From Acidobacteriaceae bacterium (lineage in GTDB: Bacteria; Acidobacteriota; Terriglobia; Bryobacterales; Bryobacteraceae): a DNA stretch of 64,000 nucleotides. The position numbers and the translations under genes are program-made. The DNA is taken from the NCBI GenBank assembly GCA_903970405.1, contig CAJCIT010000161.1, positions 1 through 64,000 of the forward strand, in the 5' to 3' direction. This document shows, one piece after another, positions 63-5,703 of this stretch. The first letter of the stretch is position 1; each line of letters starts with the position of its first letter. Under the pieces are notes generated by a model, which was given only the letters and a program-made list of their open reading frames with translations, searched no databases and had not been told where the DNA came from.

Positions 63-383
63 CATTTAATCTGCTGTCAGCCTGCTAACCGCAGTCTGCC
101 GGCTTCTGTTCTTTGACAACCCGCCTCCAGTAAGTGCCCGCCTCATGCGACCCCACCCCAACTCCGCTCAGACAAACGCCAGAACGCGCAAAATCCACGC
201 CGAAAAGCGCAGATTTTCACCTGCCGGCCCCGCTACGCGCTCGAATTTGAGGCCCGCACATCCCTGAACAGTTCGTTTCGTAGCGCCGATCCGGCGACTT
301 GCCATGTGCCTCTCTGGCTTGCCGGCGTTGCTATCGTTCCTCACGCTGCCACAAACGGTTGAACATGGTGTGTGCCGCGAGCG
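63..383. other. intergenic region upstream of the Cpx-like operon
   Basis: No convincing gene lies here. A short open frame on the minus strand (168-401) has no recognisable features and overlaps the regulator promoter region, so I do not call it. A TTGACA lies at 113-118, but I see no good -10 at the right distance. Confidence 0.4.
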
Positions 384-398
384 GTAAAGGATTGTAAA
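384..398 (+). promoter_or_regulatory. CpxR-box-like operator GTAAA-N5-GTAAA
   Basis: GTAAA at 384-388 and GTAAA at 394-398 are separated by exactly 5 bp (GGATT). This is the known CpxR box of enterobacteria in perfect form. It lies 63 bp upstream of the ATG of an OmpR-family regulator whose partner kinase resembles CpxA. The inference is that the operon is autoregulated. Confidence 0.55.
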
Positions 399-461
399 CA
401 ATGGAGCTTGCCGGACCGAAGCCCGCCGGAATCCGCTACGCTAGGGCAAGCCCGGTCCCAC

Positions 462-2531: not shown

Positions 2532-2674
2532 AGCAATGGGGCGGCGTAAGCGGTGAAACGCGCGCCGCGTTTGGTACGTTCATAGATAAGTCTCGCAGGT
2601 GCGTTTTTCGGCCGGCTTAGTTCTGACTACTCGCATCGGTTCTCCGCTGCCGCATTACTTTGGTGAGGAGTTTT

Positions 2675-3130
2675 GTGCCCGTTGTTCACTTGAACGAGTG
2701 CCGTGCGCATCGCCGCGGCTGGATGACTGCGTGCGGCAGAAGCGTGCTGGCTTTCCTGGCGGCAGCGGTTTTGCGTGCTCAGCAAAAATCGGATTCGAAG
2801 GAGCCGGAAGCCGCAGCGGACGCCGACGGTGTCGACGAGCCGGTGTACGAGGTTGGCGGCGATGTCAAGGGCCCGCGCGTCTTACATCGCGTGATGCCCG
2901 AGTTTACACCGAAATCGAGGGAGCAGCACATTGAGGGGTCGGTGATTCTGGCCACGGTGGTGACTTCAAAAGGCGAACCGCGCCGGGTTCGCGTTCAAAA
3001 GAGTCTGGATAAGGAATTGGACGCGAAGGCGGTTGAGGCGCTGCGTCAGTGGCAATTTGCGCCGGGGCAGAAGGACAACAAACCGGTTGCCACCAGGGTG
3101 AGCGTGGAGATCCGGTTTAACGTGCTGTAG
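2675..3130 (+). CDS. secreted TonB C-terminal-domain protein
   Basis: Small exported protein with a TonB C-terminal domain in its last 85 or so residues: PEFTPKSREQHIEGSV, then a strand-helix-strand with ALRQWQFAPGQKDNKPVA. A hydrophobic segment (VLAFLAAAVLRA) near the N-terminus is a signal peptide or anchor. It lacks the long Pro/Lys-rich linker of classical TonB. Many Acidobacteria encode such short TonB-domain proteins; whether they energise outer-membrane receptors is unknown. The start is uncertain: GTG 2675 has GAGGAG just upstream, while ATG 2723 would put the signal peptide at the very N-terminus. It follows the kinase gene in the same direction after about 140 bp. Confidence 0.75.
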   Translation: MPVVHLNECRAHRRGWMTACGRSVLAFLAAAVLRAQQKSDSKEPEAAADADGVDEPVYEVGGDVKGPRVLHRVMPEFTPKSREQHIEGSVILATVVTSKGEPRRVRVQKSLDKELDAKAVEALRQWQFAPGQKDNKPVATRVSVEIRFNVL

Positions 3131-3155: not shown

Positions 3156-4595
3156 TTACTTCGTCCCGTGCGGCGTCGCTGGGTCGGCCGACACCACCGT
3201 CCACGGATTGGCCTTGATATCTCTCAGCAGCGAACTCTGCCACTCAAACTCCGGATGATCTTCAATGTGCTTAGCGGCGTGAAACTCTACGCCGCAGGGA
3301 TGCCCCATGCCCGCTGAGAAAGCCATGCGCTCAGCCATCGCCGCGTCCGCCACTTTCGCATTCGCGACGCCGGCCGGTCCGTAAGCCGGTTGCCAGCCCT
3401 TCATGCCGCGCCCGGATTTATCCACGTGCCCGCATATCGTGCGCTCGTTCGGGTCAATCTCATGCGTCAGCGCGTCATAGTGATCGGTCTCGAATTTCTC
3501 GCCGGCCGCTACGTCGATCTTGCCTTTGTATTCGGCCATGAGTTGATCCCAGCGGATGTGGCGAATGCCGTCCGGCGCTTCGGGATCGGTGGCTGGATAG
3601 TCAGTTTCCTCGGCAATCAGTTTGGGATTAATGGGGAAATTCGAGCCGACAAAGTAGCCGTCTTTGGTGCGTTCCAGCGTGACGTTCTTCAACCCGAGTT
3701 CCAGACGTCCAATCTCATTGGTTTTGCGGTCCGCCACCAGCCAGGTGTTCGCATAGCCGCCGTTGTTACCCTCTTTCATGAGGCGGGCGAAATCGTCGAT
3801 GGATTCTGAATACTGCATCGCCTTGCGGGCGCGCACAAACTCGGGCACGGCGTTCTCATCGAAGCCATGAAACGCGGAGATCGTCGTTTCGGTGATCAGG
3901 ATGCCCGCGTCGTTGATGCCGAAATCATCCGCGCTGTGGATCAGGCCCGGCATGCCATCCATCAGGATGTGGTGGCCGGCAGTGGGCACGATATCGAAAA
4001 TGACGTTCCAGCGCGCCGCCGTCAGATAGTCGGTCCAGTTGTTGTGGCCAATCACCACACGGCCGTCTTTCGTATACGACCCGGTGGCCACAAAGGCGCT
4101 GCAGTGCTCCGCGGGGTGGGCGGGACCGGACGCGCCCGCGCGGCGCTTCAACTCGTCGTAGTAATAGCTGTACTCCATGTAGGCATTCATCGCTACAAGG
4201 TCAATTACATCGAGCTTTGATTTGCGCGCGTGAAGGCCTTCGGCAATGCCCGTCAGCTCGTCGCGATATTCCTGGGGCACCTTCGGCCAGAAGTATTTTT
4301 GCGCGACGTCTCGCAGTTCGGCCCATGATCGATTTACCTCGTGCGTGGTCGAAAGAGCGATGGCCTTCTGGTTGTCTTCAATCTCCGGCGCCAGCAGATA
4401 GCCGTGTTGAAAGCCGACGGTTCCCGGCGAACCTTCGAGATGAACGAAGATCCAGCCGGCCTTTTCGGGCTTGCGGGAGGAGCCTTCCAGGCGCGGGTCG
4501 GCACCCGTCTGGTTTCCAGCTAACCTCTTGGACCCGCCGAAACACAGCGCGGGAAGTAAAAGAGAGAGAATGAGGAGAAGGCGGCGCAAGGTCAT
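3156..4595 (-). CDS. C45-family Ntn hydrolase / phospholipase B-like protein, exported
   Basis: Protein of 479 aa with a Sec signal peptide (MTLRRLLLILSLLLPALCFG). It resembles the acyl-CoA:6-aminopenicillanic acid acyltransferase / phospholipase B-like group of N-terminal-nucleophile hydrolases. The likely nucleophile is C165 in AEHCSAFVATG, where family members cleave themselves to free an N-terminal Cys. Further family motifs are VIGHNNWTDY, the GLIHSADDFGINDAGI segment and NEIGRLELGLKN. The substrate is probably an amide or acyl bond in the periplasm, but the sequence does not say which. Its 5' end overlaps the proposed start of the divergent oxidase subunit gene. It has no operon partner. 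Confidence 0.75.
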   Translation of the reverse strand: MTLRRLLLILSLLLPALCFGGSKRLAGNQTGADPRLEGSSRKPEKAGWIFVHLEGSPGTVGFQHGYLLAPEIEDNQKAIALSTTHEVNRSWAELRDVAQKYFWPKVPQEYRDELTGIAEGLHARKSKLDVIDLVAMNAYMEYSYYYDELKRRAGASGPAHPAEHCSAFVATGSYTKDGRVVIGHNNWTDYLTAARWNVIFDIVPTAGHHILMDGMPGLIHSADDFGINDAGILITETTISAFHGFDENAVPEFVRARKAMQYSESIDDFARLMKEGNNGGYANTWLVADRKTNEIGRLELGLKNVTLERTKDGYFVGSNFPINPKLIAEETDYPATDPEAPDGIRHIRWDQLMAEYKGKIDVAAGEKFETDHYDALTHEIDPNERTICGHVDKSGRGMKGWQPAYGPAGVANAKVADAAMAERMAFSAGMGHPCGVEFHAAKHIEDHPEFEWQSSLLRDIKANPWTVVSADPATPHGTK

Positions 4596-5259
4596 TTCTC
4601 CCGATTACAACACAAAAGCACCGGGCTCGGAGCAATCCGGCGGGCGTTTAAGACGAGGCTTGCAGGCCGCGCCCGGCCTTCAAAGCTGGGAACAGGAACG
4701 AAACTTGAACTCTCTGTACGTGATGGCGATTCTGGTCGGCCTGGGCATTGTCACCATGACGTTCGGAGCGCTGGTCTTCGCTTTTGTCTATCGCTCATTT
4801 TCCGCACAGAACTGGCTGCCCATCGAGTTACCTCGCGTGTTGTGGGTTTCCACCGGGATTCTGCTGGCCAGCAGCGCTGTTCTGGCGGGGGCGCAAAGTC
4901 GGCTGAGACAGGGCGGGGAAGCATCGTTCCACACTTTGGTGAGAGTGGCCGCGGGCCTGGGAGTGCTGTTCCTCATATTGCAACTGGCCGCGTGGTATTC
5001 AATTGTCACCTCTGGCGTGGTACTGGACAGGAACCCGCACTCATCATTCATTTTCATTTTTTCCGGAATGCACGGGGTGCACATTCTGCTGGGTCTGGCT
5101 GGTCTGTTTTACTTGTTACAACGCACAAGGACGCCGGTGGGCGGACCGAAATACCGGATGACAACGCGAGTCTGGGGAAATGCCGTGTCGATCTTCTGGC
5201 ATTACCTGGATTTTGTCTGGATTGCGTTGTTTGCGATGCTACTAATATGGAAGAGGTAA
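4570..5259 (+). CDS. cytochrome c oxidase subunit III-like protein (five-helix form)
   Basis: Membrane protein with five hydrophobic segments and the subunit III signatures HSSFIFIFSGMHGVHILLG and WGNAVSIFWHYLDFVWIALF. The core from MAILVGLG (4723) is 178 aa, the size of five-helix subunit III of caa3- and bo3-type oxidases. The start is uncertain: ATG 4570 follows AGAGAG and gives a basic N-terminal extension but overlaps the divergent gene; TTG 4705 or ATG 4723 would give the bare core. No subunit I, II or IV gene is nearby, so this is an orphan that may serve an oxidase encoded elsewhere. Confidence 0.8.
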   Translation: MRRRRRKVISPDYNTKAPGSEQSGGRLRRGLQAAPGLQSWEQERNLNSLYVMAILVGLGIVTMTFGALVFAFVYRSFSAQNWLPIELPRVLWVSTGILLASSAVLAGAQSRLRQGGEASFHTLVRVAAGLGVLFLILQLAAWYSIVTSGVVLDRNPHSSFIFIFSGMHGVHILLGLAGLFYLLQRTRTPVGGPKYRMTTRVWGNAVSIFWHYLDFVWIALFAMLLIWKR

Positions 5260-5268
5260 CGGAGCGGT

Positions 5269-5703
5269 TTAACCCCGCGCGGCGGCTGCGGTTCTGGTCC
5301 ATTTCCCGACAATGGCCACCAGTTCGTTCGGCTGAAATGGCTTTGAGAGGTAGTCGTCCATGCCCCCGGCTAGACAGCGTTCGCGCTCGCCTACCATGGC
5401 ATTGGCAGTAACCGCAATAATGGCCGGTTGGCGCACGCGCAGGCCCCGAATCGCCCGTGTCGCCTCAAAGCCATCCATTGAGGGCATCTGGCAATCCATC
5501 AGGATCACGTCGTAAACCACTGTCGAATGCGCCTCCACTGCCTGAAAGCCGTCCGTGGCCAAGTCAACACTATAGCCCGCGCGCTGCAGAATGAGCTTCC
5601 CAACGCGTTGATTAATGAGGTTGTCCTCAGCCATGAGGATCTTCACTTTGGGGGGCGCGGGCAGGATATCTTCGGCCAGTGACGCCAGGTTGCGAAAAGC
5701 CAT
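5269..5703 (-). CDS. stand-alone receiver-domain protein
   Basis: Single-domain response regulator of 144 aa with a short N-terminal extension of about 20 residues. Receiver residues are E26-D27, phospho-acceptor D70 in ILMDCQMPSMDG, T99 and K121 in YLSKPFQP. The DCQMPxMDG form is typical of receivers cut from hybrid kinases. There is no output domain, so it probably passes phosphate on or works by protein contact. It converges on the oxidase subunit gene with 9 bp between them. No kinase is adjacent. Confidence 0.85.
   Translation of the reverse strand: MAFRNLASLAEDILPAPPKVKILMAEDNLINQRVGKLILQRAGYSVDLATDGFQAVEAHSTVVYDVILMDCQMPSMDGFEATRAIRGLRVRQPAIIAVTANAMVGERERCLAGGMDDYLSKPFQPNELVAIVGKWTRTAAAARG

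Follow-up and report, generated by a model that had tools for sequence, protein, structure and literature searches.

Close to the start of the window, by which we mean the whole 64 kb stretch of DNA that was analysed, an intergenic region carrying a predicted CpxR-type operator precedes a single operon encoding an OmpR-family regulator and a HAMP-HisKA-HATPase kinase (Table 1), one of the features by which CpxRA membership is judged. The Pfam domains of the regulator are Response_reg and Trans_reg_C. The two top NCBIfam models for the kinase are both CpxA models, scoring 274 and 234 bits against equivalog cut-offs of 800 and 486, and the CpxR model likewise scores below its cut-off with the regulator (190 bits vs 341). 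The closest solved relative of the kinase by sequence is CpxA (161 bits, with 93 for the next distinct protein). In a Foldseek search with a model of the whole kinase (mean pLDDT 85), the top match is a CpxA core structure, and the majority of the best 25 matches are CpxA. The sensor domain was modelled with low confidence (mean pLDDT 68) and its top match, the PfeS sensor 3kyz, is weak (E 0.37, probability 0.72); in the accessible part of PMC11078701, CpxA is given a PAS sensor and PfeS is named as the one structure sharing the dimer. Domains, NCBIfam ranking and solved relatives together bear out the first-pass annotation, which had described an OmpR-family regulator with a kinase resembling CpxA.

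Table 1. Features at the start of the window, with the evidence for each.
Feature	Position	Strand	Evidence
Predicted CpxR-type operator GTAAA-N5-GTAAA, GTAAAGGATTGTAAA	384..398	+	Exact match; kept at orthologous promoters
Intergenic region with operator	63..461		Window and contig begin at 1; + strand frame ends at 62
OmpR-family response regulator, sister clade of CpxR, 238 aa	462..1178	+	Pfam, E. coli match, tree
CpxA-like sensor histidine kinase, 447 aa	1188..2531	+	Pfam, NCBIfam, solved relatives, tree, structure model

A pattern scan confirmed that the repeat is exact, on the + strand, and that 63 bases separate its end from the regulator ATG at 462, both of which had been noted at first pass. 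The site GTAAAGGATTGTAAA is the sole box match within the 64 kb, where shuffled sequence leads us to expect 0.03. A longer regulator frame, from a GTG at 372, would span the box; it is an unlikely start because the protein alignments to relatives mostly begin near the codon at 462. No sigma-70 consensus promoter was found in positions 200-600 of the window. The idea of a constant distance from box to −10 element was dropped, as the distances are scattered and no sigma-70 consensus promoter lies nearby.

On the 3′ side of the kinase gene, a small TonB C-terminal-domain protein is encoded (2660-3127, + strand), followed on the opposite strand by a C45-family acyltransferase/hydrolase (3156-4595, −). 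Judging from translations alone, positions 4471-5703 hold a putative heme-copper oxidase subunit III beside a lone receiver domain that resembles the tail of a hybrid kinase.

Relationship to CpxR and CpxA

From the family of the window and its closest relatives, 124 operon loci were gathered, and a regulator 49-75% identical to that of the window was found in 122 of them (the window itself is included, at 100%). Among E. coli proteins, the window regulator matches CpxR best, at 43% identity. CpxR is also the best match for 110 of the 111 family regulators that gave a hit, from 122 submitted, and CpxA for 37 of the 39 family kinases with a hit.

A quick regulator tree grouped long branches, and a careful tree was used in its place, for which the rows were thinned to 59 and Ec_rstA, Ec_phoP, Ec_kdpE, Ec_creB, Ec_basR and L018 were omitted as long or misassigned. 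Here the window regulator and E. coli CpxR fall in one clade of 44 rows (98/86, bootstrap/SH-aLRT) that excludes OmpR, PhoB, BaeR, QseB, CusR, HprR, ArcA and TorR. Within this clade, the window belongs to an acidobacterial group of 17 rows (98/87), and the sister of that group (27 rows, 99/94) comprises E. coli CpxR, other Acidobacteriota and other phyla. The window regulator is not, in this tree, inside the clade of CpxR proper. Candidatus Solibacter and Terracidiphilus are among the named loci close to the window, and the assignment of the organism to the acidobacteria is based on such relatives. The kinase tree agrees in outline and is less well supported, the clade that includes E. coli CpxA having an SH-aLRT value of 91.

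The recognition helix gives a similar picture. Among 14 E. coli OmpR-family regulators, the signature D-x-H-x-S-[NHR]-L-R-[RKQ]-K is present in CpxR only. Most family members have it (99 of 120), as do 20 of 27 regulators from other acidobacterial families and 31 of 78 named-locus regulators, and none of 15 paralogue controls does. By sequence, the window system is rightly described as CpxRA-like; to call it CpxRA would be too strong, because its regulator sits in the sister clade of CpxR proper.

The box at orthologous promoters

At least 250 bases of upstream sequence were available for 116 of the family loci, of which 115 are distinct, and the 300 bases upstream were scanned. An exact box lies upstream of the regulator in 13 of the 115 regions, where dinucleotide shuffles (100 rounds) average 0.02, and 49 regions have a box with at most one mismatch, vs 0.95 in shuffles. 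The spacing is strict. Exact matches number zero at N0-N4, N6, N7 and N9-N15 and one at N8, and allowing one mismatch gives between 0 and 4 regions for each of N0-N4 and N6-N12, compared to the 49 obtained at N5. Unsupervised expectation-maximisation on the same regions, with no prior motif, returned GTAAAGNTTTGTAAA. When one family region with a non-A/C/G/T letter was removed, the counts were 13 exact and 49 within one mismatch out of 114 (shuffles, 0 and 0.85). The PhoP-type box, GTTTA-N5-GTTTA, is also a direct repeat with an N5 spacer and differs in its half-site, GTTTA in place of GTAAA; it is found exactly in just 1 of 114 family regions. A position matrix trained on 64 sites from outside the set places 65 of the 115 regions above a 1% shuffle threshold, and discriminates less cleanly than the spacing test, because 4 of 15 paralogue controls exceed its 5% threshold.

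No box within two mismatches was found in 45 of the 115 family regions, and the box is absent in the two closest relatives, L035 (75% identity) and L036 (72%). Read by eye, the L035 regulator is preceded by a co-directional gene, and that of L036 adjoins a tRNA and an elongation-factor-like gene. In L069, L074, L081, L092 and L110, a variant [CA]TTAAG[TA]TTTGTAAA recurs upstream of the regulator, suggesting that the first half-site has been altered in a lineage-specific way.

The box was then sought more widely. For other acidobacterial families we collected 29 loci (L147-L175), with a regulator in 27 and sufficient upstream sequence in 26; the box is exact in 14 of the 26 and within one mismatch in 19. 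A scan of genome contigs provided 80 named loci, of which 78 were usable. Among the 20 of these from Acidobacteriota, 9 have an exact box and 13 a box within one mismatch, and for the 58 from outside the phylum the equivalent counts are 20 and 32. The non-acidobacterial set includes Nitrospirota, Myxococcota, Synergistota, Thermodesulfobacteriota, Rokuibacteriota and Pseudomonadota, with the box present in some and not all of these, and a spacing of N6 also occurs outside the phylum (7 of 58, exact). The box of E. coli K-12 cpxR is exact and lies at -70 from the ATG, compared to -78 in the window; none was found within one mismatch upstream of the 13 other OmpR-family regulator genes of E. coli K-12. 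Paralogous regulators in the relatives have no upstream box (0/15, a set in which we retained L018, a Cpx-clade member without the box). In short, the first-pass annotation had proposed an operator conserved over a very large distance and a comparison of orthologous upstream regions, and we see a box far above chance at family promoters at N5 only, absent at paralogues, and present in other acidobacterial families and other phyla.

The neighbouring gene was also compared. At 19 of the 110 family loci, 27 of the 69 named loci and 6 of the 13 loci from other Acidobacteriota, the top divergent frame encodes an LTXXQ protein (CpxP/Spy family); at the 13 control loci it never does. No divergent cpxP (LTXXQ) gene was found in the 461 bases available between the contig start and the window regulator.

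As read from these sequences, the simplest history places the origin of the operator before the split of the two sister clades, because both carry the box; horizontal spread of the operator between phyla is also possible. A convergent origin would have the acidobacterial sister regulator gaining the same operator independently, so that its likeness to E. coli would say nothing about ancestry. The position of the window regulator outside CpxR proper and the shortness of OmpR-family half-sites would suit such an origin, but the box keeps the same spacing across the two sister clades and several phyla, often accompanied by a divergent LTXXQ gene, and we consider convergence unlikely. It concerns history, and would be compatible with the functional explanation that we prefer, namely regulation of the operon by its own regulator through the box.

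Candidate targets and genome-wide frequency

Searching with a T-rich spacer pattern, GTAAANNTTTGTAAA, gave 32 sites in 200 genomes, vs 18 for its backward form. Of 30 sites that were opened, a crude test on reading frames places 17 between genes, many ahead of proteins with signal-peptide-like starts. These sites led to a secreted DUF5666/CusF-like family, which was noticed through members beside the operon and two box sites. DUF5666 relatives are present in 77 of 121 genomes. The best 30 loci, chosen by protein score and not by the box and including that of the window's own genome, contain 4 exact boxes and 15 within one mismatch, where shuffles give 0.35. Many of these boxes lie some 60 bases ahead of the start, and the half-site is often GTCAA, a variant that also appears in HT-SELEX data for Pseudomonas aeruginosa, according to the accessible text of PMC12802237. 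Among the places listed, a DUF5666 gene lies within 3 kb of the kinase in 14 genomes, and none of the 15 box-bearing DUF5666 loci is near a kinase place so listed. In the genome of L018 (G008), whose Cpx-clade regulator-kinase pair lacks the box, an exact box stands before a DUF5666 gene.

A small secreted lipocalin-like family (L304, L309, L310 and relatives) is found in 111 of 121 genomes, many with several copies, and has an exact box at 3 of 29 loci and one within one mismatch at 6 of 29; these counts are not independent evidence, because the family was chosen for the box of its gene. A further 18 box sites, picked by spacer or recurrence, are illustrative only.

OmpR-family proteins have in common an operator architecture of direct repeats with a ten-base period, so the box could be a genuine operator that is read by another member of the family, or shared by several, and not mainly by the regulator downstream of it. 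In four genomes (G052, G062, G087 and G095), DUF5666 is preceded by a box and no CpxA-like kinase was detected, meaning that either another regulator reads these boxes or the genomes are incomplete, and the paralogue promoters above the 5% matrix threshold point the same way. However, the box follows the CpxR clade across phyla, together with the shared recognition-helix signature, and the CpxR proteins of E. coli and P. aeruginosa use the same sequence, as stated in the available parts of PMC9600279 and PMC12802237. We therefore judge a different main reader to be quite improbable, and favour the downstream regulator.

A genome-wide scan for the box, and a look for boxes before envelope-stress genes, had been proposed at first pass; in the window's own genome, neither came out in favour of the operator. 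The genome (5.45 Mb) contains 2 exact sites vs 4 for the backward pattern, the second being inside a long ORF, and a relaxed motif gives 15 sites vs 19 for the backward control, with several of the nine that were inspected lying within reading frames. Over 200 family genomes, the exact motif shows no obvious excess vs the backward control, as judged by eye from an unsummed table. No regulon is visible in the window's genome. The flanks examined for its CpxP-like genes (PF07813, in three places) and its lipocalin-like genes are free of boxes at up to one mismatch. The site GTAATGTTTTGCAAA (G000:C59; L285 1379-1393), about 120 bp before the genome's own DUF5666 gene, has two mismatches and is too weak to be claimed as a box.

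Because the exact and relaxed motifs are at the level of the backward control, the genome scan alone gives no support to the operator, and the significance of the box comes from its conservation at orthologous promoters. That a ten-base match in a large genome simply happens to precede a two-component operon would fit this frequency and the two box-less nearest relatives, but is very improbable given that orthologous promoters keep the box at a strict N5 where paralogue promoters have none and shuffled upstream regions give 0.02 per 115.

A predicted envelope-stress circuit

Taken together, the comparative data make it highly probable that the box is the operator of the CpxR-clade regulator encoded immediately downstream, controlling the regulator's own operon and genes for secreted envelope proteins. 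On our best reading, a CpxRA-like sister system regulates itself through an operator that has kept its sequence in different phyla. We infer the binding, the autoregulation and its sign, and the inducing signal, as follows. The CpxA-like kinase would sense envelope stress and phosphorylate the regulator, and a dimer of the phosphorylated regulator would bind the pair of GTAAA half-sites, which lie one turn of the helix apart. The bound regulator would control, and probably raise, transcription of its own operon, and would also control genes for secreted envelope proteins.

The likeness to the cpxP-cpxRA locus of E. coli extends to the sequence and spacing of the operator, its position some 70-80 bp before the regulator ATG, the regulator-kinase gene order and the recognition-helix signature. 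The window differs in that its regulator, at 43% identity, belongs to the sister clade, its sensor domain is not confidently placed, its own genome has no detectable regulon, and it lacks the cpxP that diverges from cpxRA in E. coli. The published CpxR consensus is GTAAA-N5-6-GTAAA in the accessible part of PMC9600279. The same consensus is given for P. aeruginosa, where Cpx genes differ in flanking cpxP on both sides, in the portion of PMC12802237 that is available; that text also states that Cpx systems occur throughout the alpha-, beta- and gamma-Proteobacteria, mostly with a divergent cpxP. No report of a CpxR box in Acidobacteria was found in the literature searched, which covers only a minority of subscription journals.

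A more extended interpretation is that operator and regulator were already paired before CpxR proper and the acidobacterial group separated, and that the pair spans several phyla. In the family of the window, a secreted DUF5666 (CusF-like) protein would then stand in for CpxP as a target of the kinase, or its partner in feedback, in the periplasm, with its gene either beside the operon or at another place where it has a Cpx box to itself. We offer this tentatively, as a possibility that may well prove wrong.

Operators usually drift fast while regulators persist. Here, an exact direct repeat precedes orthologous operons in Acidobacteriota, Nitrospirota, Myxococcota and Proteobacteria, so that a regulator and its predicted binding code can be traced together across phyla. 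This suggests a stress circuit of greater age, or wider distribution, than is commonly stated. For the Acidobacteriota, the predicted operator and the predicted family of secreted targets would provide a first handle on the control of envelope stress.
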